A DNA stretch of 64,000 bases from Anadara kagoshimensis (Eukaryota > Mollusca > Bivalvia > Arcoida > Arcidae). How positions within the stretch are numbered: the stretch's first letter is position 1; the number at the start of each line of letters is the position of its first letter. Both the position numbers and the translations under genes were made by a program. Positions 36,676-63,699 of the stretch are shown here, in pieces. The notes under the pieces were generated by a model. That model did no database searches and had not been told where the DNA came from. It saw only the letters and a list, made by a program, of their open reading frames with translations. Location: the NCBI GenBank assembly GCA_021292105.1, contig CM037862.1, forward strand, positions 5,923,265-5,987,264, in the 5' to 3' direction.

Positions 36676-39600
36676 TCACACATTTTTTATCAGTTGTATC
36701 AGAGCATCAATAGTTCTTTCTATTCCAATCTCTTTCAACATCAACTGGAAATTCTCTGGTGCTTCTTTTAACACTTTCTCTTCATCCATACTCGATACTG
36801 AAATTGACAAAGCAAAGTCAGAAAAACGAGGTTTATTGGGCATGATATGCTCACTTGATAAATAATATATATAAAGCTAATTGAAATATTTTAAGAATAT
36901 AAAAACTGAAAACCCAATGTCAAAATCTTTACAAATAGTCAAAATTTAAAGCTTTTCCAGGTTATTAACCATTTCAGTTTTCTTTCCCATCTGTGATCTT
37001 GACCTTTGAAATCATGCACTGAGTCTATTCTTTGATGACAATCCTAATGAAATATTTAGAAAGAGCTATAGGGGACACAAAGTTAGCTGGAAAGTTTAAA
37101 ATAAACAAATGTTATTAAGTAATACTCCCTAATATATTTTTATGAAACTATTATAAGTGTTATATAAGGTGGCATATTTATTAAAAAAGCTTTTGCTTAA
37201 CCTGTGTACAATAAAACCTTGGCTGACTTTGATTTGTCAATCAGGAGTCTATCGGGTGTTACACGAGTATGTTAATGCGTATGTCTCAAACTCAAACTCA
37301 ACACAAACCGAATTTAAAAATTGGCAATAAATCTTGTGAGGCTTATACCTAAAACATAAAAAGAAATGAAGTTTAGGACTTCAAAATAATGTTGAGGTGG
37401 TAAAGTTATTGAGGGATATTAAAATGAGGTTTTACTGTACAAGGTAGCTGCCTTGAATCGTTAGCCTGTGCATTATACAATTTACTTACAACTTTCTGGA
37501 GCTTGAACCCCCAGTTCTATACAAGGCTGTGCTCTGTAAATATCATTTACTTTATACTTCCAACTCACTGCAAACACTGGCCTGTGAAATAAAATATGCT
37601 TACTGCTAGTAGTTACTAGTTACATGTAGTAGTGAAAAACTTTGAAATGAGTGAATTAATACTTATCAGTCTATGCAAGAATAAACTTCATTCTTGAATC
37701 CTACATTCAACAAAATGGATCGTGCAATCCTGAATGGAACTGGCAAAAGGTCTAATTGTTCCACTGCAACACAACAAATCAACATTTGGAACAATACCAA
37801 CAAGAAAGATTAAAGTAGACTTTGAATATGTTCAAAACAGACTGAGACCTTTGTCAGAGACAGTTTTTCTTGTATGTCTTGTATTAAGGGTGTGTGTGTA
37901 TGTGTGTGTGTGTGTGTGGGGGGGGGGGGGGGTAAATGGAATGTTTTTGGTCCCTGTCAAGATTTTTTCACTTGTTTCAGTCTGTTATGAAATAATAGAG
38001 AAAACTGGAGTACCAAGTGAAATCAACAACTTTCAGCAAGTTAGCTAACAAACTTTTCTTCACACTTGGATCAGTCCAGAGTGACATACTATTGAATCAA
38101 ATAAGACATTTACTATGTTTCCATTCCTGGTAGTCAAAATCACCACTGGCTACTAATTTCTGAGGAATTCTTTCAAAAAGTAACCTATTTTAGCAAATTT
38201 GTGGAAAAATACTTTAAAAAGGAATATGTTTTCACAAATTTTGAAAAATTTGGCTACTTATTATTTTTAATTTGTGGAAACGTAGCATTTTTTATTTTTT
38301 TGAAATACCAAAGATATTTTTACAACACATATTTTGGGTACATACCTATTTTTAGTATTAGGATTCTGAATGAGCAAATAAGGAACATCATCTTTTTCTA
38401 CAACACTTGTAAAATCTGGGTATGTCCGACAAAAATAGTCTAATGTGTCCTGTCTGTGTTGTGACCACTGTGAGTACGGTCCTAATATTCTATAAAATCC
38501 CTGTAATGATTTGTCACTTACAACCCTGAAAGTAAGTAATTTAAGTAGGATTGTTATATGAGTAACAGGAAAGAGAAAAAATGAAGGGTCGGACCACAAA
38601 TCAAAATCGGGACATCCCGCACTATAGGCAAGTGCTCTACCACTGAGCTACCAAGACTGCTACAATTATATGAGTATATATGACTATCTGTAAACACAAC
38701 CCTGATAATCACATTTTCAGGAATTTTCTATCTAAATATTGTTTAGATCAGTTGTATTACACTGAAACATGTATTCCTAATTACAAAAATGAGGTTACTA
38801 GTAACAGCTTAATAGGTTGTTTTAGTCAAAATCAAACATGTTTTCCTCTTTCTACTGAATTTCAAATTGTTAAAACTTCTTCCAATACAATTTAAAAGTC
38901 TGAGACATAATATTTTCAGGAACTCTTAAGGTTTTCCCATTACTTCAAATATTAAGATATTGTGGGAAAATAAACCCTCATGCTGCCAAATGGACAAATG
39001 TGTCTTTTACTGACTGCCTGCCACTAGGACACACATGTCAGGGTTCGATTTTAGCGATATTTACCACTAGCAAAAATTAGCTTGTACAATTTTTATTCAC
39101 TAGCTAAAATTTATGAAACAGTTTTAATAGCTCATAATTAACATTCAATTTCTTGGGCCATGTGGGACTTTTGCGACTTTTTTTTTTTACTTTTTTATTC
39201 ACGTGCTACAGTAAAGCATGACAGTAATGGGATTTCCACTGGTCTATTTTAAACAACGAATCAGAGACGAAGACTAAGTTAAGCAGCCAATCGTAGCCAC
39301 ATGTTCCAGGAAACCTAATATTATACATTGACATATATGCCCGAGTAATCCGAATTTGTTTATGATAGAGATGCCTAGACAATATGACTTATTTCGGCCG
39401 CTTTTCGTTTTTTTTTTTTTTGTTGTTTTAAATTTCATTTGGAACATACAATGTGACAGTTAATTGAAAAGTAGATTGTAAATGATTTAGCTTCTTTTAT
39501 TCACTCGCTCAACTATGCGAGTGGCTTTTATTTCCACTCGCTATTCGGCAGATCTACAAGCTATTAGCGAGTATGCGTGCCTAATTTTGAACCCTGCATG

Positions 39601-42600
39601 TCCTTTCAATGGAGTTGACAACTCTTGGTTAAAAGACTAAAGAAATGTTTATAATATCTTTGTAAACAGAAATGCAAAAAGTTTGACTATTGAGATCAAA
39701 ATCTACCATTGCCTAGGGATGTCATATGACCAAACACATGTGACGTCATAACCTATTGTTGACGTACTATCAATTTACATTGTATAAATCAATTTGGCAT
39801 GGTCTGATTATTACTAGAGATATACCTTCAAATCAACCTTATTTCCTTTAACCGAGTCATGAATTATAAGTGATTTAAAATTAATGCACTGAAAAAATGC
39901 ATATATTAAACATTATTTTTAACACTTATTTTGAAATTCATTGATTTTTGAAAATTTTGATTCTTAAGTGTCCATGAAAACAGAAAAAACTGCAAAACTT
40001 GGAACACAACAAAACTTTGATTTTACGGTATTACCTATCCAATCCAGGTCCTAATTCTCTGAAGACTTCATCAGGAACATAAATTGTTAGCTGTGTTATC
40101 TCTGCTACAGAACTAACATCATTATCACCATTACCATCATCAGCCTGTTAACATAGAAATTAACCACTTCTAAAATGTCCTATTATAGTGAAACAAGACA
40201 ATTTACATGAAGTCAAAAATTTGGACAGTCATTGTAAAGCTATTTCAGAAAACAAAGATCCAAGATCCAAATACCTTTAACAACAAATTTGTTTCAGTTG
40301 GCCAGATAGTACTTTGTATATAGTGTATCAAGTTTGACCTGGCCATTTGACCTTTAATTTGAATATTAGATTGAGCTAGTATAGGTAAACAACATTGACC
40401 TGTCCGCTTGACCTAGTAGTGTATATACTGGTTCATAACTACATTTTGTATTTGATCATACTGTACAAAGATTTGTCAATTCCTTTGCTTAAGGCTGGTT
40501 GTTGTTTTTTCCAGGTTCTCATGTTTCATCTACAACTCTAGAACTGAGTGAAATAGTCATGACTGGGACATAATATTATTCTAACCACCACATCCACAAC
40601 ACTATAGGTATCAGTCAATGGGACTGGTACCTGCCCCCAGTTTCACAATAATTTCTAAGTTAATATTCTCCTTATCTTAAATCAGTCAAATTAGAAATTT
40701 GAATAGTCTTTCTTTAATTTTTCAAGATATTTCTGAATTTAAGATGTCATTTTGAAGATCACTCTAAGCTTATCACATCCGTTTTAAAATTTTGCTGAAA
40801 TTTATTATTTGAAGTACCGTAAAATATTGTCAAAATTTGCCAGATTTAGGTTAAGGAAAATCTTAGTTGAGGCATAATTGTGAAACTGGAGCCAGGTCAG
40901 CCTACTAACAGATCGCCAGCCACGGCCACAATGTTCCGACAAAGGCAGCCATCACGGTACCAAAGCAGCGTCAAGGCAACTAATGACGTACTAGTGTCAG
41001 TGACGTCATTAAACGGCGCAATTCAGACCGAGCTTTCATTCTTTATGCGTGTAATTCAAGCATGCCAGACCTTTGTCGGAACATTGTGGGCGTGGTCAGC
41101 GATACGTCAATTGCCCCTCACTGTGGTCAGATAAAATGATTAACATTAGAATTTAGAACATATTTTCTTACCGATTTTTCCATCTTTTCTTCAACTTCAA
41201 ACTCAATATTAAACTGTATACCGGAACACTCTCCCTGAATTTTGTATTTTGATTGTAAACAAGATTGATCTATAAAACATAAGATTGACTCTTAACAACC
41301 TTATATATATGTACTTACTAAATATTAATGAAACATACATGGATGGCTAATGCAATTACCCCTATTGGCTGATTTCGGGATACCTTACAAAATGAAATAT
41401 TCCAATAAAACTGGAGTTACCAGTGACTTCTTTGTGATAAATATAAAGGCCTATGTTTGAGGCAGTTTTTATGTTTGTTGATATTTTGAATTTGCCTTGA
41501 TGGCTTGGAGCTACTGACAGATTAACATCACACGAGCCAAGGAAGTCATACAATTTCAAAGTAACATTTGTAACTATTTTCTGTAAACTATGTCATTGTC
41601 TGAAATTAGCCTGAAATTCTAAGTAGCCTCAGTCTCATATTTCAATTTCATCCCATATGAATGAATATTAATATCTGACTGAAAAGTTGGACCAATGGTA
41701 TGGCCTAAATTCTGAACCCTTATCATGTACCTAAACTCAGAACTAAAACCTGGTAGATTCAGCTCAATAGCCTTGCCTGGAAATCAATGCAGAGAAAAGA
41801 ATCCTTGATAACAAATCTGGACTTCCTGCTAGGGGTTGAGCAGAGGGCCTAGATGAAAATTAGCAGGGGCCCAGTACCCAATGACTACTAAAAATCAGTC
41901 TGGACCACTTAATGTTTTCACTTTTAAGCCATTTATTACTATTACAACTTCTTTTCTGAAGTGAGCTGGGCCCCTAACTCAAAATAGTTAAGCTTCATCC
42001 CTGGAGGACCAATCACCCTTTCTCATAAAACAACTTTGATTACAGAAACACAAAAAAGGTGGCCTATATTCCGCAGGGGAGTGAAAAGAGCCGACATCAA
42101 AGTCACATACAACATATATGCATACCTTCCTCTAATATTTGACTTTCACTGCTAGAAAAAGAGAATCCTGTCAATTTCTCCATCATTTCAATCTACAAAT
42201 ATAAAACAACAAAAAAATCAGTGCCAGTAAGTAATAAGTAATTAATAATAGATGACCTTGACATTCGACTTACAACATTCAGAATTTTGTGTTTCATAAT
42301 GTCAACCAAAGTTTGAACAAAATATATAGGATGTCTGTAAATCGATTAATAAATGACTACCACATTTTTTTTTCAATTATATTAATTTTTTAATTATGCG
42401 AGTACTGTAAATGACTTAATCATTCAATTGCCAAAATAATTTGAAGACTTAACTCTGCCCAGAAAATTTCCCTTTCAAAATTGTGAATCAATCAGAACAT
42501 ATCCTGATTCTGACTGAAACCATTTTTATATGGGAATCCTAAAAATAAGTGAGTTTATAGTCGTCATTATATTAGCATACTGGTAGGTATTTTTGAAGAT

Positions 42601-45418
42601 ACTAAATAAAACTTTGTAACAATTTCATTTTATGCAGTTATATTATTAAAGATATAAAACATTATTTAAAATTTTCAAGTCATTTTACATGATTTAAATA
42701 CATTCTGACCTTTTCCTCCATCTTTTCTATTTCTTTGTGTATTTCTTCTACAGATTTGTATTTTGGTCCTTCACCAGCAATGCTTTTTCTTTTGGATAAA
42801 AAGAAAAAAATCAAAACAAAAATGTCAGAAAAATAATGTAAGAGTATTTCATCTGTATACGTGTGTGACCATACATAAAGTGTGTTAATCATTTAAAGAC
42901 AATATATATTGTATAAGTTTTCTTTCTGTCAATCGTACAGCTTACAGATACATGCTAGGAACCAATCAGAATCTTAGAAATTAGGCTGAAAATCTAACCA
43001 GCACAAAATCCTGAATTTAAATGTTTTCTACAAAAACAATGTGGGTTCAGAAATTAAAGCCAGTATGTGGGTCTATGACTATTAAGCCAGACCTTTATCA
43101 TTTTGTAAATTATGGAATACAAACAATTTTTAGATTGGTGTCAGTTAGAATTTTAATCAATAATGGCCTAAATGACACAGAGAACATTTAAATCCTCTTC
43201 TGATAGAAGGCTTCATATAGCCTCTTGCATAAGCTGTTCTACTAAATCAGATTTTTGTGTGTCATGTCCGGTTGTTATATCTTCTTTGTAGATGCATAAA
43301 TATTCTTGATTACTCCAAAATCTGTCAAGTCTTCTTTCAAATGTCATTGATGTTCTTGCTTCCACTACTGGTGCTGATAAACTGTTCTAGATGTTGACTA
43401 CTCTGTTGCAAAACAAGTTCCTATAGAGTTTATACTTGTGAATTGTCTTTTTTAGTTTGAATATGTTTGATACCTCTTCATTTACAAAGTATTACAACCA
43501 ATACAGTAGTCATTGAATGTTCCATAACTTTAACTCACCTTTTGGATTTAAGTATTTCTTCTTTAGTAATAACTTCCTTCTCTAAATATTTAACTTCTTT
43601 TTCAAGCTTTGTTAATTCTTTTTCCTGCATCTGTGTAAATCTGCGTTTCTTAGCAATAGATTGTGACAGTGCAGAAACTGTATTATTTAAAGCATTTTCA
43701 ACTTCCATGCTGGGAAATCTAAAATAAAATTTAAAAATTAGTTATGGTAAAAAAAAAATCAAATCACAAATAACACTTACAGAATTGGACAGTCACAAAT
43801 AGCATGCAACTCAAACAGAAAACAATATATTTATTCTTTTGAAATGCACATTGTCTGCAGAATTTCACTTTGAAATCAATTTTGAAGACAGAAACAGTAC
43901 CAATAAATCCCAAAGATAGTATATTTTGGGAATTTCCAGAGAACTCAGTGAATTAAGATCCTGATGATATTAATTTATGATTTGCACGTTAATTCAAAGG
44001 GCTTTAACTCCCAGGAAAATGAGCAAACCAACTTTGGTTAAGGGTCATCCAAGTAGGAAAATTCAAGTGAAAACCATTTCGATGAAAAGCGTGAGATAGG
44101 GGTATAATTATGAAATTACCTACACAAGTGGGGAGATTTTTAAATAAAAATACAGATGGAATTAATAATTTAAGAAATTTTAAAATATTTGTTGTATTTT
44201 TTAAAGAAAATTGTGCAAAAATACACGTGTTGGGGAAATAGCTTACATTGTATAACGAATTAATTTTAAAAAATGAAAAGATATTAAGATAGTCAACATC
44301 ATAGAGCAGTGCAAAGGGGCCAGAGTTTGTTAAAGAAATACGAGGTTTTTGAAAACTCGACAATTTACTGTTGAGGTTATCTACGATTTATTTTCCTTTT
44401 AAAATGCATGTACCAGGCGTGAAATTTATATTCTAAGGCCACTACTAATCAAAAATACAACAAGTCACTAAAAGTGCACTGTCACACAATACTGTTCTAT
44501 TTAAATTGAGGTAAATATTGTTTGGTTTCAACAATGTTGAACTATATAAAGCCGAATATGCCTCAGCAATAATCAAGTAATATTCAAACTTAGCTTTTAT
44601 AATCTTCCCTTGGATCGTTGGTAGCCTTAGAATATGGACTATCACGCCTGGTACACGCATTTTTAAAAGGAAAACAAAACATAAAAAACCTCAACCGTAA
44701 ATTGTTGAGTTTTCAAAAACCTCGTATTTCTTTAACAAACTCTACCCCCTTTGCACTGCTCTATGACGTTGACTATCTTAATATCTTTTCATTTTTTGAA
44801 ATCAATTCGTTATACAAGGTGTAAGCTATTTTCCCCAACACGTGTATTTTTGCACAATTTTCTTTAAAAAATGCAACAAATATTTTAAAATTGCTTATTT
44901 ATCAATTCCTACTTTATTTTTATTTATAAATCTTCACACTTTTGTAGGTAATTTCATAATTATAACCCTCTTTCACGCTTTTCAACCAAATGGTTTTCAC
45001 TTGAATTTTCCTACTTAAATGACCCTTAAAGATATGCGCATCCCCTATCAATGCTTTGAATCAAGTTCCGTAAAATAGTTTTGGAAATTATTCAGAATAA
45101 GAACTGTCTGGGTGACTGGAAGCATGGGCACTTGCTATGTCACAATTTCGAAAAAAAAATATCCCCTATGAAAATATGGGGAGATTTTTTGGGGAAATGT
45201 GATGCCTGTGGCTGGAAGTTTGAAATTTAATTTTAATATTCCCTTTCTTCCAAGGGGGAGGGGATAAAAAATCATCAGAATATGATTTGCCTTTGCATGT
45301 GTTCAGTACCAATCACTTTATGTATATTCTTATATAATGCATATTATACACACTCTTTTATCTTCTGGTTGATATTTGACAACTCTATACCAAAACTTGT
45401 GTCCATATTTCCCGCCAT
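36676..45418 (-). CDS. CENPP: CENP-P, centromere protein P
   Basis: Coding exons from the likely start: 43708-43539, 42788-42710, 42192-42126, 41269-41172, 40144-40035, 38525-38346, 37581-37490 and 36797-36676 (TGA). All join in frame at AG/GT sites to give 305 residues; human CENP-P is about 288. Residues 1-90 are a charged coiled coil, followed by LTGFSFSS, then the conserved half: QFNIEFEVEE, LTIYVPDEVF, the aromatic helix SQWSQHRQDTLDYF, VFAVSWKYKVND and the C-terminal helix ENFQLMLKEIGIERTIDALIQLI. This order matches the tandem RWD-like region of CENP-P. In the family, CENP-P pairs with CENP-O in the CENP-O/P/Q/R/U part of the CCAN at the inner kinetochore. An upstream exon at 45418 opens with ATGGCGGGAAAT; it may be leader or may add about 25 residues through a weak phase-2 donor at 45353, so the true start is unsettled. 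The first intron is about 1.6 kb. Confidence 0.9.
38594..38664 (-). other. tRNA-like SINE head fragment
   Basis: The minus strand reads cttggtagctcagtggtagagcacttgcct, a clear A-box/D-arm like that of tRNA-Ala, followed by an anticodon-arm-like stretch and a poor B-box (gggatgtcccgat). It ends about 70 bp before the acceptor of CENPP exon 38525-38346, on the same strand. No full cloverleaf can be drawn, so it is a SINE remnant and not a functional tRNA. Confidence 0.6.
39039..39596. mobile_element. hAT-like non-autonomous DNA element
   Basis: Ends CAGGGTTCgattttag and ctaattttGAACCCTG form inverted repeats. Interior ends also carry related motifs (tagcgatatttaccactagc, and gctattagcgag). The catgtc hexamer borders both sides. 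The CAGGG terminus is typical of hAT elements, but I do not see an 8-bp target duplication. It lies in a CENPP intron and has no transposase frame. Confidence 0.55.
40635..40905. mobile_element. Inverted-repeat element with cAGTTTCACAAT ends
   Basis: cctgcccccagtttcacaataatttctaag at the left and cttagttgaggcataattgtgaaactggagccagg at the right are imperfect inverted repeats of about 30 bp around 200 bp of A+T-rich DNA, in the CENPP intron between 41172 and 40144. Confidence 0.65.
40926..41089. mobile_element. Short element with perfect 20-bp inverted repeats
   Basis: ccacaatgttccgacaaagg (40926-40945) is the exact reverse complement of 41070-41089. The 164-bp unit is much richer in G+C than its surroundings and creates an accidental 84-codon frame. 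It begins about 20 bp after the previous element, so the two may be nested or composite. Confidence 0.7.
44038..45029. mobile_element. 1-kb foldback element
   Basis: Arms of about 410 bp (44038-44445 and 44617-45029) are inverted copies with scattered differences, around a 170-bp centre. Matching landmarks include taagggtcat / atgaccctta, caagtgaaaaccat / atggttttcacttg, ttttgaaaactc / gagttttcaaaa and gtaccaggcgtga / tcacgcctggtac. It lies in the first CENPP intron, and transcribed RNA would fold into a long hairpin. No coding capacity. Confidence 0.85.
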
Positions 45419-45900
45419 CTTTGTTTACCTGGGGAAAAATCATTATTTAAAATAGTGAATTTAAAAATGTAAACACTTATCAAGTTTTAAATGTAGTATC
45501 CTCGTTTTAACATTCTTCTGTTAATTTAAACAGGCTAATTAGAATAATACATGATAAATGAATGGGTTTGATTGCATTCAATCTGTTTCAACTAAAACTA
45601 GCCAACAGGTGCTCCCTCCAAAAGGGAGCAAAAATTGTCTTAAACAGATGACATAAGAAATCACTGAATATTATGGCTTATATTGCACGAAGAGTAATAT
45701 ATATTTATTTTTTCAATATAATCAATGTAAACATAGATATTATAAACTTTATAACATTTATTTTTACGTAACATTTAATAAAAAAATAACTGCTCCATTT
45801 AGAAAAGTTCCAACTTCCGGTTGAAGGAAAACAAAAACACGTGTATTTTCTAGTGGCAATTTTTTAATGATATAGCAACATGGTAATGAAGTTGACAGTA
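45405..45900. promoter_or_regulatory. Shared divergent promoter of CENPP and NOL8
   Basis: On the CENPP side, tttcccgccatcttt (45408-45422) combines an E2F site (TTTCCCGCC) with a YY1/TISU-like AAAGATGGCGGG on the minus strand, overlapping an ATG. On the NOL8 side, ACTTCCGG (45813-45820) is an ETS site and CACGTG (45838-45843) a Myc/USF-type E-box. A gtaaga donor at 45898 fits a NOL8 leader exon that joins the acceptor ending at 46709. No TATA box is evident. Motif matches are direct; function is inferred. Confidence 0.55.
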
Positions 45901-46709
45901 AGATAATGGTAAGTTAAGACATGGTCATTTAGTTGTATCTGATGTCACACTACAAATGCACTTTGAAGTGAATTTCACCTGGCTCAAGTTTATCCCATCT
46001 TGCCCAAATTTATGTCAAAGTTCATATGTTAAGTAATTTAGCATAAAAGAAGTTATGTTAGATTACAGAGTCGTGTTTTTACCCCCTGACACGCTGTGTT
46101 TTATAGATGAAACACAAACTGTCCATACTAGAATGGTAAAAAGCTTATCAGAATAGTCTTTCAGATGAGACTCAAAACCATAAACATACTAATCCATGCT
46201 CGAATCACAATCCAGAAGCCTAGTAAAAACTTTGAAACTGACAAGTTAGGTTAGACACCCAAAGTTCCACCAGGGAAGTGAGGCCGGTGCTCCAGAAAGG
46301 ACATCAAAAATATCTAGGGCAATCCTGGACACTGACATCAAACTTATCAACAATATTGTAACGACAGCCATAAAACTTTTTCAGGGCCTTGATTAGTTTA
46401 GGATTGCAATATCCCTGGGTCAACAATTTAAATTTCAAAACCAAAGTGCTGTGTCTCCGTGCATGTTAAAAACACCTCTGTAGAGTTTAAATAAGAGTAG
46501 GCCATCTGTGGCCACTGCATAGGACGCTTACAACTAGAAGCAAATGAAACAGACTGAGCAAGAAGATAAGATCATACTGCAGATGTAAGCATGATAGGCA
46601 GATTACATACATTATTATTAAGTGTCTTAAGACTTTTAGTGAAAGTTTTTTGATGGATATATAATAAGTTTTTAAAAAGACAGCAATAGTAAGTGTGTGT
46701 AATTTTCAG
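45901..46709 (+). other. NOL8 leader intron (no gene seen)
   Basis: From the gtaaga donor at 45898 to the ttttcag acceptor ending at 46709. I see no coding exon or known repeat within it. A sentence-like 300-bp stretch around 46,200-46,500 with higher G+C may be an old repeat. Confidence 0.45.
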
Positions 46710-46717
46710 ATAAATGT

Positions 46718-52700: not shown

Positions 52701-52780
52701 CCAAACCGCAAAATATGTCTGTTGCTAGTGTTCATGGGTATGATTCATTTGAACATGGAATTGATGATGACGATGATGAC

Positions 52781-52817
<37 letters not shown>

Positions 52818-54151
52818 GTGATTCCTCAAATTCGGAAAAATCTAGTGATAGTGGTCATATTATTAACGCCAATGGAAAGAAAGATGTAAAGGTCATGTCA
52901 AGTTCAGCCAATGGAAAGAAAGATGTAAAGGTCATGTCAAGTTCAGCCAATGAAAAGAAAGATGTAGAGGTCACATCAAGTTCATCATCTAGTGATGATA
53001 GCGAGGAGGAGGATAAATCTAGGTCACTGAATAAAAACAACTTAAATCAGGATGTTAAGAAACCTTTGCAAAGTAATAAAAAAGTCCAAAATGTGAAAGA
53101 GAGTTTGAAAATACCAAATGTTAAAGACCACAATGAGACAAAAGAATCACAAATAAAAAACAAAAATGTGAAAGAAACTCTGAAAGATCACAACACCAAA
53201 GTGGCAAGTACAAAGGACCGTAACACAAAAGAATTGCAAATAAAAGAGGCATTAAAAGAAAAAACAAAAGAAACAAATACAGACAGTGCAAGTAAAAAAT
53301 CCCAGCAGGTAGATAAAAATCCTTCACTTACGACAGCAAAGTTAAATACAGCCAAGAATGAGAAAAAAGAACATACAGGACCAGATGCCAACAAAAAGAG
53401 ATTAGAAAGTCTCAAACAAAGGAAAATGGAAAACCAGTCTCAGAAAACAGCAATAAAAGAAGCACTAGCCAATGTGGTAAGTCAGATGTCTTATGTCAGG
53501 TTTAAGCATTAATGGGGTGGGGTGAGGGGCTCATAATGGAGCAGTTTAAAACACAAACTTATGAATCACTGAACTTCTTGATGTCTAGGTTGTAATACCA
53601 CTTCATCCTTGGTTCCTAGTACAAGAAATTTTGTTGGTTCTTTTGCCGAGAGTCAGATTTTCACTCCAATCCCTTGAATATTGACAGATAAATGAGTGAA
53701 AAAAAACAATCATTCCAATTCACTCCTACCAGCAGCAGGATACAGATATTACCTTTCTAGTGGAGACACTGTGTTTTCTGTATTGACATTTGCACAACAT
53801 TAAACAATCTGTTCTAACAGTTTTACCATAGCTCTTGCCATCATGGTTGGAATGATGCGATGTGACATTTTAAAATGGTCTTTTTTTTGCTAGTTTATTC
53901 TACTAAAAACTTGTCTTTGCCCTTGCTAACAAGTTTATTATATATTACTTATAGTGATCAAATTTTGGAAATGTAATCATTGCAAAATCTCTTGTTAAAA
54001 TGTTTCCAAAAACTTATAATTTCCTTTATGTATGTTGTTAATGGGATTAATAGCTAAAACTGTGAAAATTCCACAACATTCAACAACCATTTTTAGCTCA
54101 CCTGGCCTAAAGGCCATGTGAGCTTTTGCCATCACTCGGCGTCCGTCGTCC

Positions 54152-54186
<35 letters not shown>

Positions 54187-57100
54187 CGTCTGTAAACTTT
54201 TCATATTTTAACTATCTCCTCTGAAACCCCTGAACCAATTTTAACCAAACTTTACAGGAATGATGTATAGAAGGTCCTTTACTAAGATTGCCGAAATTAT
54301 TTTGATCCGCCAAAAAACATGGCTGCCAGCGCAGAAGATAGTTTAACATGGGACCCTATGGGAAAAATGCATTTTTGACTATTTCCTCAGAAGTAACTAG
54401 AGCAAATTTAACCAAATTTTACAGGAATGGTGTAAGGAAGGTCCTTTACTTAGATTACCAAAATTTTTCTGATCCGTCAAAAAACATGGCCGCCAGCACA
54501 AAAGATAGTTTAACATAAGACCCTATGGGAAAAGCATATATTTGCTATCTTCTTTGTAACCGCTGAGCCAATTTTAACCAAACTTTACACGAATAATGTA
54601 TGTAAGGTCATTTACTAAGATTGCCAAAATTTTTCTGATCCGCCAAAAAAAATGGCCGCCAGGGCCAAACAAAGTTTAACATTGGGCCCTATGGGAAAAC
54701 GTACATTTTGGCTATCTCCTCTGAAACGACTAAAGCCAATTCAATTAAACTTTACAGGAACGATGTATGGAAGGTCTTTTGCAAAGATTGCTGAAATTTT
54801 TCTGATCCGCCTAAAAACATGGCTGCCAGCGGGGAACATAATTTAACATTGGACCCTATGGGAAAAACACATTTTGGCTATCTCCTCTGAAACTACTGAA
54901 GCAAACTTAACCAAACTTTACAGGAATGATGTATAGAAGGTTCTTTACTTAGATTGCCGAAATTTTTTTGGTCAGCCAAAAAACATGGCTGCCAGCGCAG
55001 AAGATAGTTTAACATAGGACCCTATGGGAAAAATGCATTTTTGACTATTTTCTCAGAAGTGACTGGAGCAAATTTAACCAAACTTTACAGGAATGGTGTA
55101 AGGAAGGTCCTTTACTTAGATTGCCAAAATTTTTCTGATCCGTCAAAAAACATGGCCGCCAGCACAGAAGATAGTTTAACATAAGACCCTATGGGAAAAG
55201 CATATATTTGCTATCTTCTTTGTAACCACTGAGCCAATTTTAACCAAACTTTACACGAATAATGTATGTAAGGTCATTTACTAAGATTGCCCAAATTTTT
55301 CTGATCCGCCAAAAAAAATGGCCGCCAGGGCCAAACAAAGTTTAACATTGGGCCCTATGGGAAAACGCACATTTTGGCTATCTCCTCTGAAAAGACTAAA
55401 GCCAATTCAATTAAACTTTACAGGAATGATGTATGGAAGGTCTTTTGCAAAGATTGCCGAAATTTTTCTGATCCGCCTAAAAACATGGCTGCCAGCAGGG
55501 AACATAGTTTAACATTGGACCCTATGGGAAAAACACATTTTGACAATGTCCTCAGAAATGACTGAAGCAAATTGAACCAAACTTTACAGGAATAAAGTAT
55601 AGAAGGTCCTTTACATAGATTGCCAAAATTTTTCTGATCTGCCATAAAAACATGGCTGCTAGCGGAGAACATTGTTTTACATTGGACCCTATGGGAAAAG
55701 CATATATATACAAATTTGCTTTAAAAGCAGGTGAGCGATACAGGCTCAGCCACACTGAGCCTCTGGTATTGTAATGTCATTTGTAGCAATTGAATTTGTT
55801 TTGTCTGTCCATTTTAGGATAAAGGGAACGCATTAAACAAGAAAATAGTGTTTGACTCTGATAGCGAGAATGAAGTACCTCTAACTGTTAACACTCCAAG
55901 TAGTACCAGGAAAACACAGAAATCATCTTCTTCGTCATCATCATCCTCATCATCCAGTGATGATGACAGCAGCAGTAGTGATGAAGACAATGATAGTAGT
56001 GGCAGTGAGGAAAATAACAAAAGTATGGATAAGAAAGAGGTAAGTATATCAGGAAACTGCTACGTCAATACTTGTATTTACTTCCATCAGTATTAGCCAA
56101 TCTGTTCAAATAACAGAAGATTTGTCATAACCCCCACACCCAGTGTTAGCATAAGGTTCAGTATTCAATTTTAAACTTTTTCACCTCTTATATTTTGATA
56201 GAGGGATGCTTCTTTCCACCTAGAATTGAATCTTATTCTGACAGGCCCTGTCTTGAAAAAGTTTGTCAATCCACTTGTCAAAAGTCAATGGTTTTTCTCT
56301 GGGAACTCTGGTTTCTTTCATCATCCCTGAACTTACCATCTCAATATAAATGAAAGGATTTTGACTAGGACATAGAACACCATTATATCACTCCATATTT
56401 TAAATAGTTCCAATGATGTTGATGAACAATAACTTATACCACATTCTGCTTTTAAATAACTTTTACATTGTTTTAAGACATAAGCTGTTTCTCCTCTATT
56501 TTACAGATTTAACCAAAGGATTCTTTATCATGATTTCCACAGAAATTAAAAGGTCTTGAAATACTGTATATTGCTCTATTTTCACGGTCTCAAATTTTTG
56601 CAGTTTAACGGTGACTAGTGCATTCGTGGTGTCATATTTTCGCGGTCTTTTCTGATTAAAGTAAAATGCCTGAGTCAAGACATCCTATGAAGGATCCTAC
56701 TCAATAAAAGGAAGAAGAAAAAGAAGACTATCAAGATTAATGGGCTGGTAATACCAATGTATTTTCGCGGTTGTTTCATTTTTGCAGGAATACACTAAAC
56801 CGCGAATATAAAGAGAAAATGAAACCACGGCAAAATATAAGCATTATACAGTATGCCAGATGATTTGAAAATACATGTACACAGGATATGTATTTGAAAA
56901 TCCCTTTGAATGTCTTCAAATTTGACATTCTGTTTAGTATACATGTATGTATGAGTGTTTTGTTGAATAAATTTAGAAATTTGTAGAAATCACACATTTA
57001 GTTTTACTATTTTACAGAAAGCCAAGACTGCTAAGAAACCAGCCCTGTTTGAAGAGTCATCGTCTGATAGTGATGATAGTTCCTCATCATCAAGACATGA

Positions 57101-60100
57101 TGATATGTTCCGTATCAGACCACAGTTTGAAGGAAAGAGTGGAAGCAAGGTATAGAATAAACAAATTGTTTTACAGATTGTTTGTATTGTAAAGGATTCT
57201 TGACAGAGAGTAATTATCTCAGGCATTACAAAGTTTGTACGGTATTTACAAAACTTTTTAAACTGTTTGAATACAAATTTATGTAATTTTCTATGCCAAC
57301 TTTCAGAAACAATATAAAAAACTTGCTTATTCTATCAGCTATAAAGTAAAACCTCCTATGACTGCCTCTCAATAACTTTGCCACCACACTATTTTGAAGT
57401 AAAATAAATCCATTTCTTCTATGTTTGCCTATATAAGCCTTCCTCGACTTATTTTCAAAACCCTTTATAATGCTTAAAACTGACTGAACAAATGATGGCA
57501 ATGATTCAAGGTTTTACTGTATAACCCCAAGTGTGTGTGGTGATGCTGGTTGCACTCTATCTCTTTAACAGTGTATCTTCATAATTAGATAGTGTACTTT
57601 GGCCAATATATGAGTTCAGCTACTTCATACTTGTGTTTGCTTTTGATTCAGAATTTTATATTTTTTCTTTTTCTTTACCAAAATAAGGTGAACTGCATCA
57701 TAGCATGATTGACCACTCAAGCATACCTGCCAACCTATTTGAAAGTTTGGAGGAACACGGCGCTGTATCGAGACACCGAAGGTGTCGAGGGGGAGAGTGT
57801 GGGAGGGGTGTCCCCTCCCGCTGGTAGGGTCTGTTTATCTGCCTCCCCCAGAAAATTTTTTAAATTTTGATGTAAAATGGTGCATTCTGGTGACTTTAAA
57901 TTGTAAAATTCAATGCTATATTTTTTATGAAATAATCAAATTTAATTCTTTTAAATCAACAATGAACCAAATACCAAATTGATATGAACATAACATAAAA
58001 TTGTGTAACATTAAAATGCATTTATGTACAAAATCTGAGCAAATTAAAATGACTAGAAGAAAATTTAATTAACTCAATTTGATAAAACATGACTAGAATC
58101 AAAGTCAATTAACTCAATTTGATAGAACATGTTAAATGCTACTTGGCACATATAAATTGTATGAGCTAAAAATGCTAATACTTGGCACATACTTGTATCT
58201 AATGATACTTGGCACACATCTAACAAAAGTTTCGCAAAACTCTAGCAAAAATACAGGAGATTACTTTTTAAAACAAATTAAATGTCCTCAAAGCTACTTG
58301 GTAGACTCAAGTTTTAAAGCAAGGTTACTCGGAATTAGAGTCTCAAAATCGGAAAGTTCCGCGAAAATCGGAATGGTTGGCAGGTATGCTCAAGAATTAA
58401 AGCCCATTTGTTACTAAAACAATTTGTTTTGATAGAATAACACAATAAACTCATTTTTATGTCAGTATATGCAATATATATTTATATAACTGATTTGTGA
58501 ATACTTTTGAAGTTGATGGCACTGCAGTCAAGATTTAGTAATGATGACAGATTTAAACTGGATGAAAGATTTGCAGAAAGTAGTGAGGATGATGATAACA
58601 ACAATGATGATGATAAGACTGAAAGGGGTAGGTATATTATGTTTACCTTCCATGTATTGTCATCGCTTCTTTAAACACACCACTGCGGTAGATTAGTTGG
58701 TAGAGTGTTCACTCCGTAAGTGGAAGGTCGTGGGTTAGATCCCCGGCCGGGTCTAACCCAAGACTTGAAAGTGGGTTGTGACTGTTCTTTCGCCAAGCAC
58801 TTTTTTTTCAGATGGGAACTTAAGTAAATGAGGTCCTGTGTCATGGTGGGCTTGGCACGCTAAAGAACCCTGCTGTATGATGCCATCAGCGCAGTGCACC
58901 GGCAAAATTTCTGCACCTTCCTCTATAGCTGACGACATCTTGATATAAGTGAAATATTCTTGACTGGGACATTAAACACCATTACTACTACTACTCTCCT
59001 TTAAACATTATGCTTCAGCTTATGATCAATTTAAGAAAGCAAATGAACAGTTCAAATGTTAAGTTCAAATCTATGGTCTTACATCGCTGCAATATGAATT
59101 AAAAATGCATGAAACAAAAAATGTGAATTAATCAGATCAAAAAAGCTTAACAAACTATAGACATCAGTGACTGAATGGTCTTAAAATGCTTGCTGATAAG
59201 TGAATAAACCACAGTATCTCTCACCGCTAAGGTTAAAATTCTACTTAGGCAGATCTTAATGTAAGAAAGTTTTCGATTAGCTTGCCGAAGGCTGGTGGTT
59301 TTTTCTGGTCACTCTGGTTTCTTCTACCATCTCAGAACTGAACATCTTAATAAAAGTGAAAAAAGCTTGATTGGGACATAAAACACTATTACTGCACTCC
59401 TCTTTAGTCACAGCTGAAAAATGTTGATTAGATTTGTCACTGTTAGTTGAAAAATGCTGGTTAGATTTGTCACAATTGGCTGAAACATTGCTGAATGAGA
59501 AGTAAAACAACGTGTGAACAAGCAATGTCTGGATAGTTTAGTTTCAATGATGGTCTTACCTGATAAGTAAATTCTCAGACTTACAAATCTAGCAGTATCC
59601 TAAGTGGTTTTTTCTCTCATTAATTTTAGGTGATGAGGATATTGAGATGATTGAAGACACAGAGAGATCGCGCACAATGAAAATATTACAGGAAGTTGTA
59701 GGAGATAAAGTCATCCTTAATTCTGACAAGCGGGACAGGAAAAAACAAATGTTTAAGTAAGTCTGTCAAGAAAATCAATGCTTTATTTGAAATGAAACAT
59801 TGACCATCCATTAATTGAGCATTGGACTTCAACATTTTATTGGAAAACAAATCAACACAAACATACTGGTATATGTTCAAATCAATATTCTAAAAAGCAA
59901 AGTAAAAATGAGACAGTGGCAAATTGAGTTTAGCCTCACCAGGTTAATTTGACCAGGTGTTCTAGAATGGTAAGTACATCCTGAGGGGCTAGCTATACCG
60001 GCCACATGTGAAACCAAAATTGATTATGGAAGGGACGTCAAATATATCCAGGGTAATTTTAGATATTATGCTGTGGTGTTTCTTATAAAAAAAAGATGGA

Positions 60101-63100
60101 CATTAAATATTTATTGATTTGTTGTTCATTTCAGAGACATATCAGCACTTCAGTTTGACCCGAGTAAGGAAGGTCACAGTCAGTTTGAAGTAAAGCAGGA
60201 AATAAAAACGAAACCAGATAAAAATAAAGACAGGTAATTTCTGTGAAATGTTAAAACAACACAACACACCACTCTCTCTCTCTCTCTCTCTCTCAGCTCT
60301 TCTCATTGGTTTTCAATTTTGAAAGACAAGTGAAATACTAAAAGACATTTTAGTTAAATATTATTGTTTAAGATTTAGGTACATATAAATTTTTCTCCCA
60401 CTAAGCAGTATATATTCAATAATTCAGGTGAAAAATATACACATAGCATACATTTGCACCAAGTACTGTGAGTAAAAACACCATTTTGGGGGATGTTCAG
60501 TCTGCATTTTTTCACTATAGATTTCTAAAAGTAAAGGCAAACTAGCCTTAAAGACCACCTCTATATAAGGGCCACCTGCTTTTATAGGCCTGTAAAATTT
60601 TATCTCAATGGCTCTTTTACTCAGTTTAATTGAACCTCTATATAAGGACCACCTGCCCATAAAGTCACTTTTATAAGTTCCATAGGGTGATCTTTATAGA
60701 CAGGTTTGACTGTACATGTATTTCAACTAATTTTTATATAGAAAGAAGAAGAAAGATGTTATTGCTGAGCAGGATGAACCAGTTGAGGAAACTCCTATAG
60801 TGGGTAAAGAGAAGTTTTATGAGGTAACTGATTCATTGAGACAAGCCTTTGTACAGAAGGAGACAGAAAATGCTGATAAAGGGACATCATTCTCTCTACT
60901 GGCTGCATTTGGAAGGACAAAAGACCCTGATGATGACAAAATGGATGAGCATAGATATGATGATGATAGAGGTATGATGACGTTCACAATTTTAAAACAA
61001 ACCATAAAATGTCTGTAGATTTAGAAATGCATTATTATTTTTGTTTAAATTTGCCATGCTTATCTTTAAAAAATTTCTGGATACTGGAAACTTTATTGCA
61101 AGTACAGTGCCCTCAAAAATTTTAAATTACAAATAATTGTAAACCATTTCAGTACAAAAAACTAAAATATGGTTTGTTTTACTTTAGTTGGTTTTCCTTA
61201 TGTTTCTTAAAAAGGAAAACACAGGTTTATTAATTAATTAATTTACATTTATATATTTATTTATTTGTTTATATTTTATTTATTTATTTATTTATTTATT
61301 TACATGTATTTATTTATTTATTTATTTATTATTATTATTTATTTTTTTTTACATGTATTTTTTTAATTATTTATTTTATTTTATTTATTTAATCAGACAC
61401 TGAAATGAAAACAATAGTTAGCGGCAACAAAAACATATTTCCTTGGCAAGAAACAAGATTTAAATATGACAGTAGTGACACAGAAGAAGAAGGTAGTGAT
61501 ATGGATACAGACGAGGAGTCGAAACACAAGAGGTAAATCATTCAGGTGTGACTTTCTGAGGTATATCATTTAAGTGTGAAATAATTCAGGTGTGACTGAA
61601 GCCAATCATTCATTTAATGAATTTGCAAATATCCTTGCATTAGGCCCTAACTGCTGAAAACTTATATGGTCCCTGTAATTAGTGAATTGTCCATTGCATG
61701 AGATATGACATAACCTCGGGTGAGCGTTAAGACCCTTGTTCAACATTGCAGACAGATTCTTTTCAAACATTGCTGGCTTCTTCCTTATCACCTGCAAATG
61801 GTCCCATGTTTTTCTGTTTTGCTCTCATTATTTATTAGAGAGCTATGCCTTTCTGTCGACTTTGAATTTTTCAACATTGGTAACATATCTGTACATCAAT
61901 CTCCTCTCACATTAATGCATTGAGATACAGATGACCCCTGACTTTTGTGCATTGCTGTGATTATTTTTAGGGAGTTTTGTTCTCTTTAAATTAAAATTTT
62001 AACATTGATTTGGTTGTCTCTATAAAGTGACAAAGACCTCGGATAGAATATATATAGCAGTAAAATCAAATAGATTGAATATCAGCTTATTTTGTTGAAT
62101 ACTTTCTACGTATGAGAATAGTGTATTTTCTTTGTCAAACCTGCACCTCACATATGGTCATAACCTGCTTGTGTATCTTACCTCTTTTATTTTCAGATCT
62201 GTAGATGATGATAAAGTTAAACCAGTTGTATTTAGTACAAAAAAACAACAATCATTCTTCTTTACAGAGGATGATGATAGAATTAAAGGTACTATAACTG
62301 TAAATTATCAAACCTCAGATAAGGTGCAATTGTTCTGTGTTGTTGAGGGAGATATACTGTAAACGTATTTATTTTTCGCTTTGTACAAATTTTTGCTTGT
62401 TTCATGGTCGTATGTTTTGCACCTAAATTAATCCAGAGCGATAATTATACTATGCTTTTTGTGCTATAATGCATATTAAAAAATAACACGAAAGTTTAAC
62501 TACTATACTGTGAAAAATAAATACACACAAATTTAAGTATGTTTACAGTATTTAAACTTAGCTATGGTTACCTTTAACTTAGGGGCCTCAACTTGTTGGA
62601 CTAAAGCATAGTTTTATAGATCACAGTGCCCTTTACTACTGTAGATCAAATCCCACTCAAGGCAGATCCTAGTGTGAGAAAGTTTGCTATTTCAATTGCA
62701 GTTGGTCAGTAGTTTTCTTCAGACTCTACTACTGTTTTCCCCACCAACCCTAACTGACCTTTTTGATATAAGGTGAAAGAATCTTGATTTGAGTGTAAAC
62801 TCCATTATTCCACTCTGTTCCACTCAGTTCACTTCAGTAACATGTTCTGGTTTTTATCAGATACAAAACTTTAATAATTCATATATTTTTCTTCATTGTC
62901 CTATAGAATCTGATAAATCCAACTTCATAAAGTTGTCCTTCATTTCTCCTGTACTTCAACAGATGTTGAGGCTTAACTAAACAAATAAAATGGATTAATG
63001 TTTGAATAATGTACTATCATTTTAATGATTAGACTGGAAACACGAGACTTAATTTTTCAACATACAGTCAAATCTGTCTATAAAGGCCATCCAAGGGAAC

Positions 63101-63699
63101 CAGTAAAAGTGGCCTTTATGGACAGATGGCCTTTATATACAGGTTAAAATAATATGAATAAAGAACAAACGGGATACAATTCTAGTGGCCTTTGTAAGCA
63201 GGTGGCCCTTATATAGAGGTGGACTTTAAGGCATCTTGGACTGTTATTATGCTTCAGCCATTTCATCCAAATACGATAAATATTTATCAGTGATTTTGTT
63301 ACATTTTTTGAAAACTACCTTCTGCCTTTATGATTGGAAAAATTGAAGTTCCAAGATCTAACAAACTGCATTATGATATACTAGCAATACCTATTATATT
63401 GATTACAAAGACATTATGTTGTGGTGCTATCTCATATTTTGTGGGTAAAGACAGCAAGATTGAATTTTCTTGTATAACAATGTTGTTTTGAGGAATTTTA
63501 GTGGACAAATTGGGAATTTTTTGTCATTATTCCCTAGGGGAAACTATCTTTATTCGGTGGTAATCTTAAGCAAACAAAATCACTGGTTATTAACCTAAAA
63601 AATCACTTAATTACAGAAGGCATAGCATTCTTTTGGAGAAAAGAAGACATTGAAGTTATCAGAGAGCAGTGGTTAGAAAAGAGACCATACCTTATTGAG
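46718..63699 (+). CDS. NOL8: Nucleolar protein 8, 3' end outside window
   Basis: Fifteen coding exons join in frame: 46718-46844, 47346-47408, 48171-48249, 49755-49917, 50801-50867, 51408-53476, 55818-56039, 57018-57149, 58513-58627, 59630-59756, 60135-60233, 60742-60971, 61397-61532, 62197-62288 and 63617-63699, giving 1,268 residues and ending at a gtaagc donor. Residues 5-80 are an RRM with RNP2 (LYIGGL) and RNP1 (KTFAYLNI). Family marks follow: NYVMKGVVPGTPIP, GKYGRVLPIVH, DPSKFCHN, SLTWEME, then a long Ser/Asp/Lys-rich middle, and the conserved C-terminal part FRIRPQFEG, LQSRFSNDDRFKLDERF, DISALQFDPSKEGHSQFE, SFSLLAAFGR, NIFPWQETRFKYDS and AFFWRKEDIEVI. Human NOL8 is about 1,167 residues. 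Known for the family: nucleolar RRM protein (Nop132), binds the helicase DDX47 and supports pre-rRNA processing. An acceptor 8 nt before the ATG shows an upstream leader exon. Confidence 0.95.
47045..47142 (+). mobile_element. SINE family A fragment
   Basis: Holds 'ggttacagttcttttggatggg', 'atgaggtcctgtgtcactgtaggcttggcatgataaagaac' and 'accattactcaactcaacg', the middle and tail of family A with an internal deletion. In a NOL8 intron. Confidence 0.7.
47731..48062 (+). mobile_element. tRNA-derived SINE, family A (copy 2)
   Basis: Head 'ccactgtgttagcgcagttgattgagtgctc...ggtttgaacccc', body 'gtagtgactgttctttcgccaaacactcagg', tail 'cttgactgagacgttaaacaccattactc'. It ends about 110 bp before NOL8 exon 48171-48249. 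Confidence 0.8.
48258..49133. mobile_element. Element with TTGTACGGCGT ends inserted beside a splice donor
   Basis: ttgtacggcgt (48258-48268) and acgccgtacaa (49123-49133) are perfect 11-bp inverted repeats. The 876-bp unit has no long frame. Its left end is 8 bp after the last base of NOL8 exon 48171-48249. Near its right end are a 38-bp copy of sequence found at 48070 and a run of 25 C (49074-49098). Confidence 0.65.
49963..50281 (+). mobile_element. tRNA-derived SINE, family B (copy 2)
   Basis: Head 'gatggaggtcgcagtggcctaatggataaaatgtcaggctc...gtttgagtcctga', body 'tactggttcacccggtgtcagtataatgtgactgattgagtggtatg', tail 'gattaataaaacggttctcatcgggaatagctga'. It starts about 45 bp after NOL8 exon 49755-49917. 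Confidence 0.75.
50982..51288 (+). mobile_element. tRNA-derived SINE, family A (copy 3)
   Basis: A damaged head (ggtcatggttgcgatcccc) is followed by 'aaagtgggtagta' with a small deletion, 'gaggtctcatgtcatggtaggcttggcatgataaaaaccctgc' and 'cttgactgggacgttaaacaccattactcaactcga'. In the NOL8 intron before the long exon. Confidence 0.8.
51408..53476 (+). CDS. NOL8: NOL8 long central exon (disordered, repeat-bearing)
   Basis: This 2,069-bp exon codes residues 167-856. The acceptor is taken as the first AG (51406-51407), which joins the previous exon to give GKKIDPSKFCHN, better than the next AG at 51409-51410. Two copies of the motif KPKLQ-x-FKG-x-KSLY occur at about residues 335-350 and 393-407. 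A run of 18 Asp starts at residue 619 (52763-52816), and a 39-bp unit repeats three times (52868-52984). Many SSSDD/SDSDSD stretches look like CK2 sites. The rest is Lys/Ser/Asn-rich and probably unfolded. Confidence 0.92.
54093..55772. mobile_element. tagctcacctgg...caggtgagc element with a higher-order tandem core
   Basis: The left end is tagctcacctggcctaaaggc, with a (GTCA/GTCC)n tract at 54135-54192; the right end is gcaggtgagcgatacaggctcag. Between them are nine monomers of about 166 bp marked by 'aactttacaggaat' (54248, 54414, 54580, 54748, 54914, 55081, 55247, 55415 and 55580). Monomers 1-4 match 5-8 in order, so a 666-bp four-monomer unit is repeated twice and monomer 9 begins a third. 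This type of element is common in bivalve genomes as I know them. Confidence 0.85.
56265..56400 (+). mobile_element. SINE family C tail fragment
   Basis: 'tggtttttctctgggaactctggtttctttcatcatccctgaac', then 'catctcaatataaatgaaaggattttgactaggacatagaacaccattatatcactcc' match the tail of family C; the tRNA head is lost. Confidence 0.65.
57716..58394. mobile_element. Non-autonomous DNA transposon with 14-bp TIRs and 6-bp target duplication
   Basis: CATACCTGCCAACC (57722-57735) and its exact complement (58375-58388) bound a 667-bp element, flanked on both sides by ctcaag (57716-57721 and 58389-58394). The interior carries 'gaaggtgtcgagggggagag' and tandem 'atacttggcacata' motifs (about 58140-58215). 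It lies in the NOL8 intron between 57149 and 58513. Confidence 0.8.
58676..58998 (+). mobile_element. tRNA-derived SINE, family A (copy 4)
   Basis: Well-preserved head (ccactgcggtagattagttggtagagtg...gtgggttagatcccc), body 'gactgttctttcgccaagcac', tail 'cttgactgggacattaaacaccattactactacta'. It begins about 50 bp after NOL8 exon 58513-58627. Confidence 0.85.
59205..59403 (+). mobile_element. SINE family C copy
   Basis: 'gcagatcttaatgtaagaaagttttcgattagc', 'ggtcactctggtttcttctaccatctcagaactgaac' and 'aaaaaagcttgattgggacataaaacactattactgcactcc'. The tRNA head is eroded. Confidence 0.65.
60541..60714 (-). mobile_element. MITE with AGTCAAACCTGTCTATAAAG ends (inverted copy)
   Basis: Reads as the complement of the 30970 copy: left end agccttaaagaccacctctatataagg, right end tctttatagacaggtttgactgta. 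Confidence 0.7.
61228..61392. repeat. (TTTA)n microsatellite at a NOL8 splice acceptor
   Basis: About 165 bp of tttattta repeats with two acatgtatt interruptions ends only 4 nt before exon 61397-61532, so the repeat itself supplies the U-rich tract ahead of the cag acceptor. Confidence 0.9.
62590..62822 (+). mobile_element. SINE family C copy
   Basis: Degraded head 'gatcacagtgccctttactactgtagatcaaatccc', then 'gcagatcctagtgtgagaaagtttgct' and the tail 'aaagaatcttgatttgagtgtaaactccattattccactc'. Confidence 0.6.
63065..63244 (+). mobile_element. MITE with AGTCAAACCTGTCTATAAAGG ends (copy 4)
   Basis: Starts cagtcaaatctgtctataaagg and ends ctttaaggcatcttggactgt, colinear with 30970-31150; it lies in the NOL8 intron before the last exon seen. 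Confidence 0.75.

Follow-up and report, generated by a model that had tools for sequence, protein, structure and literature searches.

A divergent CENPP-NOL8 gene pair in the bivalve Anadara kagoshimensis and its candidate shared promoter

CENP-P is an inner-kinetochore protein of the CENP-O/P/Q/U arm, and NOL8 acts in the nucleolus in ribosome biogenesis. Human NOL8 and CENPP are adjacent and divergently transcribed at 9q22.31. From the letters of 64,000 nucleotides of Anadara kagoshimensis DNA (here called the window), the original prediction read the same two genes as a head-to-head pair that predates the protostome-deuterostome split and is perhaps held by a shared promoter. The locus therefore raises the question of whether this gene order is ancestral to bilaterians, an age of more than half a billion years, and what would have kept it.

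The minus-strand gene was analyzed through its spliced protein. Eight exons running from 43708 down to 36676, with GT/AG borders and consistent phases, give an uninterrupted frame of 305 amino acids. This protein matched the Pfam CENP-P family (PF13096) with 83.7 bits (E = 1.7e-23; residues 113 to 299, profile positions 2 to 177 of 177), 58 bits above the gathering cut-off of 25 bits, and human CENP-P in the PDB gave a co-linear match over residues 67 to 300 (E = 2.8e-13). On these protein matches, the gene is firmly assigned to CENP-P, a subunit of the CCAN. The assignment depends on the spliced protein, because a six-frame, exon-by-exon search of the A. kagoshimensis genome with the Pfam CENP-P profile returned zero matches and its control was also empty, probably as a result of the short exons. 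The exons, including a proposed first one, are as follows (window positions).

45354 to 45418, minus strand: proposed CENPP exon 1 (MAGNMDTSFGIELSNINQKIKE), with a YY1/TISU-like ATG start and the frame kept into exon 2
43539 to 43718, minus strand: CENPP exon 2, containing the ATG at 43708 that starts the shorter model
42710 to 42788, minus strand: CENPP exon 3
42126 to 42192, minus strand: CENPP exon 4
41172 to 41269, minus strand: CENPP exon 5, where the Pfam CENP-P match begins (residue 113 of the 305-residue model)
40035 to 40144, minus strand: CENPP exon 6
38346 to 38525, minus strand: CENPP exon 7
37490 to 37581, minus strand: CENPP exon 8
36676 to 36797, minus strand: last CENPP exon, with the stop

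The 5′ end of CENPP had been placed at 43.7 kb, but the true first exon is probably the one at 45354 to 45418. This candidate extends 65 bp from an ATG at 45418, joins exon 2 in frame and would add MAGNMDTSFGIELSNINQKIKEFPS to the protein. Its donor, AGA/GTGTGT, is the best available, yet weak. Inspected by eye, the two other donors that keep the frame offered no improvement and were discarded.

NOL8, on the plus strand, has fifteen coding exons within the window, from 46718 to 63699, which encode 1268 open residues. The gene does not end at 63699, as had been proposed, since a sixteenth and last exon was found just past the window at 64416 to 64496, adding 26 residues and a stop.

45851 to 45908, plus strand: probable 5′ untranslated exon of NOL8, its 5′ end being a guess, with a strong donor (ATAATG/GTAAGT) at 45909
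46709 to 46844, plus strand: first NOL8 coding exon, with the ATG at 46718 and the start of the RRM
47346 to 47408, 48171 to 48249, 49755 to 49917 and 50801 to 50867, plus strand: NOL8 coding exons
51408 to 53476, plus strand: large NOL8 exon (DPSKFCHN ... ALANV)
55818 to 56039, 57018 to 57149, 58513 to 58627, 59630 to 59756 and 60135 to 60233, plus strand: NOL8 coding exons
60742 to 60971, 61397 to 61532, 62197 to 62288 and 63617 to 63699, plus strand: NOL8 coding exons, continued

One NOL8 intron carries a 167-bp unit repeated nine times in tandem (54206 to 55699). A Pfam search covering two pieces of the protein, its first 257 and last 293 residues, found RRM_1 in the N-terminal piece (E = 4.1e-8, residues 7 to 79) and zero families in the C-terminal one. 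In a blastp comparison with an approximate human NOL8 sequence, the best match reached 188 bits (E = 2e-52) over residues 3 to 225, that is, the RRM and beyond, and others followed at residues 961 to 1138 (1e-14), 828 to 876 (3e-5) and, weakly, 336 to 349 (0.008). As a control, none of 50 shuffled human NOL8 sequences exceeded 25.8 bits, and no match was obtained with the human sequence reversed. At the level of protein sequence, the likeness to NOL8 extends past the RRM and into the C-terminal third. An origin of one of the frames from another family, the supposed NOL8 being for instance an ordinary RRM protein, would fit two observations: RRM_1 is the only family in the pieces given to Pfam, and the 47 PDB sequences listed include no NOL8. 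However, the human NOL8 matches reach far beyond the RRM, through residues 80 to 225 and into the further regions, and CENPP clears its Pfam cut-off widely, so that such a misassignment is hardly credible. A protein search placing a frame in another family had been named in advance as a refutation; the comparisons with Pfam, the PDB and human NOL8 supported CENP-P and NOL8 instead.

The exon models on opposite strands bear out the head-to-head order: CENPP (minus) and NOL8 (plus) are divergently transcribed neighbors, and the interval between them, read by eye, held no further convincing coding exon. In the firm models, 3010 bp separate the two start codons. The actual 5′ ends are apparently much closer, with predicted start sites spaced by about 400 to 490 bp if CENPP exon 1 (45418) and the NOL8 donor (45909) are correct.

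Around the pair, a crude codon-score listing inspected by eye, which can miss genes, revealed none of its human neighbors within 90 kb to the left or 110 kb to the right. A large gene without an assigned family lies to the left, followed further left by a DOCK match; to the right are a Toll-type receptor lookalike recognized by eye (a 40-residue piece of which had no Pfam match) and, beyond it, an XPC match. Six of seven flank pieces compared with Pfam had no family at all, and a weak resemblance to a prostaglandin reductase (E = 0.0043) stayed below the cut-off in Pfam. A minus-strand open frame of 1,100 residues at the left edge of the window (1 to 3308), which runs on beyond that edge, had no Pfam family.

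Linkage was then considered at the scale of the chromosome. IARS1, NINJ1 and FBP1 are taken here to be human 9q22 genes, FBP1 at 9q22.3. Four other human 9q22 families were placed in the genome, in which C6, the chromosome carrying the pair, accounts for 67 of 1115 Mb. Both IPPK matches were on C6, about 23 Mb from the pair, as were 8 of 11 ninjurin matches, counted at the level of the family to which NINJ1 belongs. Two tandem ninjurin genes lie 3.5 kb apart at C6:12709511-12713337. Isoleucyl-tRNA synthetase (ileS) had three of its nine matches on C6 and six on C22. The C6 synthetase is regarded as the IARS1 kind because the two exons tested both had 'Isoleucine--tRNA ligase, cytoplasmic' as best PDB match (1.2e-30 and 1.2e-34). 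The synthetase frames on C22 contain many in-frame TGA codons and are mollicute-like, one scoring 760 bits; C22 probably represents DNA of a symbiont or a contaminant. All four FBPase matches were on C15 and none on C6, which counts against linkage of the whole arm. With three of the four families having matches on C6, the pair is retained as a two-gene unit on a chromosome that is itself partly conserved. The sequence style is plausibly molluscan; a genome search for the molluscan hemocyanin family came back empty, as did its control.

Searching the A. kagoshimensis genome with either protein recovered the whole divergent pair a second time on C6, near 8.82 to 8.84 Mb. This second copy (C6:8786001-8855000) is collinear with the first, flanks included, from 697 to 67685 in window numbering at an offset of 2.861 to 2.865 Mb, collinearity being assessed outside about 9 to 17 kb. 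The left neighbor of the pair is likewise present, and 350 residues of the 1,100-residue frame are 100% identical in the second copy. Between copies, 19 of the 330 CENPP positions compared differ, counting the stop (dS 0.133, dN/dS 0.20), as do 77 of 1002 in NOL8 (dS 0.120, dN/dS 0.30). The NOL8 comparison runs from RLYIGG through the exon whose end is at 58627, and thus omits the residues before RLYIGG and the final seven coding exons. Both genes are open in both copies across the compared parts. In the second copy of NOL8, a single additional base stands directly after the position of the first copy's ATG, so that this copy must start elsewhere or has a disturbed 5′ end. CENPP intron 1 contains an imperfect foldback of about 1 kb (44038 to 45029) with arms of up to 172 nt, and zero bases of the second copy align opposite 44000 to 44999; given that nothing there aligns to it, the foldback is perhaps a recent mobile-element insertion.

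Counted from BLAST pieces of at least 150 bits, divergence between the copies is 2.9% in the left flank and 2.2% in the right flank. Non-coding divergence is 7.3% across the pair (36100 to 64500), with a peak of 13.3% around the promoter at 43.7 to 49.2 kb (43720 to 49152). IPPK and IARS also occur twice on C6, each about 1.1 Mb apart, the IPPK copies being 99.3% identical over 1763 bp, a match confined to the right side of loci 3192 bp long, and the IARS copies showing 16 mismatches in a 600-column alignment with 26 gaps; FBPase, unlike these two, is single. The second copy is probably an unpurged haplotig, that is, two alleles left in the assembly, a reading favored over a real duplication because flank divergence of 2 to 3% fits two alleles. 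The raised divergence over the pair could stem from haplotypes of great age or from introgression; it could also mean that gene conversion has homogenized the flanks of a real duplication, or that divergence is simply patchy in the ordinary way. That the species maintains two long-lived divergent haplotypes of the pair, with their divergence peaking at the promoter, seems improbable.

Within the interval between the genes, three features stand out at the candidate promoter.

45411 to 45422, minus strand: YY1/TISU-like site AAAGATGGCGGG, overlapping the proposed CENPP start codon (ATG 45418)
45634 to 45690, no strand: 57-bp block identical in both copies, a run reached by 7 of 5000 column shuffles
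45801 to 45850, no strand: conserved block with an ETS site (CCGGAAGT, minus strand, 45820) and CACGTG (45838)

The 9-mer AAGATGGCG of the YY1/TISU-like site occurs three times in 264 kb and the ETS site five times, each with one occurrence in the CENPP-NOL8 interval. The two sites (45421 and 45820) are separated by 399 bp, and the ETS site and CACGTG sit just upstream of the candidate NOL8 leader. Among 1500 Markov-simulated intervals of 2990 bp, AAGATGGCG was present in 12, CCGGAAG in 99 and its eight-letter form in 26, and AAGATGGCG and CCGGAAG were together in none; these frequencies are indicative only, because the choice of motifs followed inspection of the sequence. The TISU element has the 12-letter consensus SAASATGGCGGC and lies at start codons preceded by a very short 5′ UTR. 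The proposed CENPP start agrees with this consensus at 10 of 12 positions, a level (at least 10 of 12) that is common, with 34 cases in 264 kb. TISU as a form of YY1 site is described in PMC2518114.

The YY1, ETS and CACGTG motifs and the NOL8 leader donor at 45909, which would splice to 46709, all recur in the second copy, where the YY1-ETS spacing is 400 bp. Promoter identity between the copies is 83% over an 849-bp window interval. Besides the 57-bp block, the longest identical runs are those of 46 and 41 bp at 45341 to 45428, covering the proposed CENPP exon 1, its donor and its start site, and those of 27 and 22 bp in the ETS/CACGTG block; the YY1/TISU and ETS sites fall inside these five, and no shuffle reached the four longest summed. 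The proposed exon 1 is open in both copies with one substitution in 65 bp, and the identical run stops 13 bp beyond it. A footprint from two copies that are perhaps alleles is shallow, and half of the four longest runs consist largely of the proposed coding exon. Nonetheless, this conservation supports a functional CENPP exon 1 and promoter, and the postulated shared promoter gains indirect backing from the two conserved sites: it is likely, as judged from motifs.

Taken together, we favor, with a probability of roughly 0.7, an orthologous divergent pair inherited from the bilaterian ancestor and held mainly by one compact promoter of about 400 bp that starts both transcripts. The promoter, at about 45.42 to 45.85 kb, would fire both ways, with CENPP transcription starting just upstream of the YY1/TISU-like ATG and NOL8 transcription starting near the ETS/CACGTG block, so that its first exon would be untranslated and spliced to 46709; being indivisible, it would keep the genes together. 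The products work separately, CENP-P at the inner kinetochore and NOL8 in the nucleolus. Promoter sharing would reflect common housekeeping or proliferation-linked expression and no joint complex. A stricter version, in which a YY1/TISU plus ETS promoter has existed since the bilaterian ancestor and its constraint, not chance, kept the pair while the surrounding genes were reshuffled, is held only tentatively.

An ancestral pair might instead have been kept by inertia, the chromosome rearranging slowly and holding its genes linked, with no working promoter common to both. The other human 9q22 genes, non-adjacent on the same chromosome, do indicate that old linkage can last without tight constraint, but the recognized flank genes differ from the human ones, so that rearrangement was common and yet left the CENPP-NOL8 boundary intact; the compact conserved 5′ interval also speaks against inertia, which we consider unlikely. 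Independent joining here and in vertebrates draws on the comparison being one of two lineages without an outgroup. For one named pair among about 25,000 genes, however, chance adjacency with divergence is roughly estimated at 1/(2N), or about 2e-5, perhaps some twenty-fold higher if both genes were already on one ancestral chromosome, and independent joining is accordingly very improbable. In our own judgement, a single origin of great age is highly probable. The predicted origin before the protostome-deuterostome split is the best reading and rests on parsimony, because two lineages only, this genome and vertebrates, are compared.

For the vertebrate side of the comparison, published work shows the two genes in a shared neighborhood. 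A legend in PMC6293640 places NOL8, CENPP, OGN, OMD, asporin, ECM2 and IPPK in one such neighborhood, and an excerpt of PMC11464144 reports 9q22.31 variants as eQTLs for several local genes, CENPP and NOL8 among them. Here the same two genes form one neighborhood, whereas OGN, OMD, ASPN, ECM2 and IPPK, nearby in vertebrates, were not recognized beside the pair. No description of the pair outside vertebrates was found among the open-licence papers listed, and neither gene name appears in the main text of the gene-order papers PMC3815023 and PMC2871058. Should further phyla confirm it, CENPP-NOL8 would rank among the oldest surviving divergent animal pairs, joining chromosome segregation to ribosome making, and its small promoter would allow one to test directly whether gene order is preserved by shared regulation.

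Ancient metazoan bidirectional pairs, reportedly described by Irimia et al. in 2012, are divergent housekeeping genes like CENPP and NOL8, and their start-site spacing of <1 kb is shared here only if our model is right. In amphioxus, a passage of PMC6292497 gives 25% of neighboring genes (3,950/15,884) as arranged in bidirectional promoters, with 372 bidirectional pairs putatively ancestral in chordates and most of these lost in vertebrates. CENPP-NOL8 thus adds to a known class, of which it would belong to the retained minority, and its presence in an invertebrate is a good new example of known ancient divergent microsynteny. A similar promoter design involves NRF-2, an ETS-type factor. In the PREPL-C2ORF34 pair, whose genes are 405 bp apart, NRF-2 and YY-1 drive expression, according to an excerpt of PMC2713978. 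That pair resembles CENPP-NOL8 in its spacing of about 400 bp and its NRF-2/ETS and YY1 sites, which are predicted motifs here, and differs in being GC-rich in human, whereas the CENPP-NOL8 interval has about 30% GC and no CpG island.
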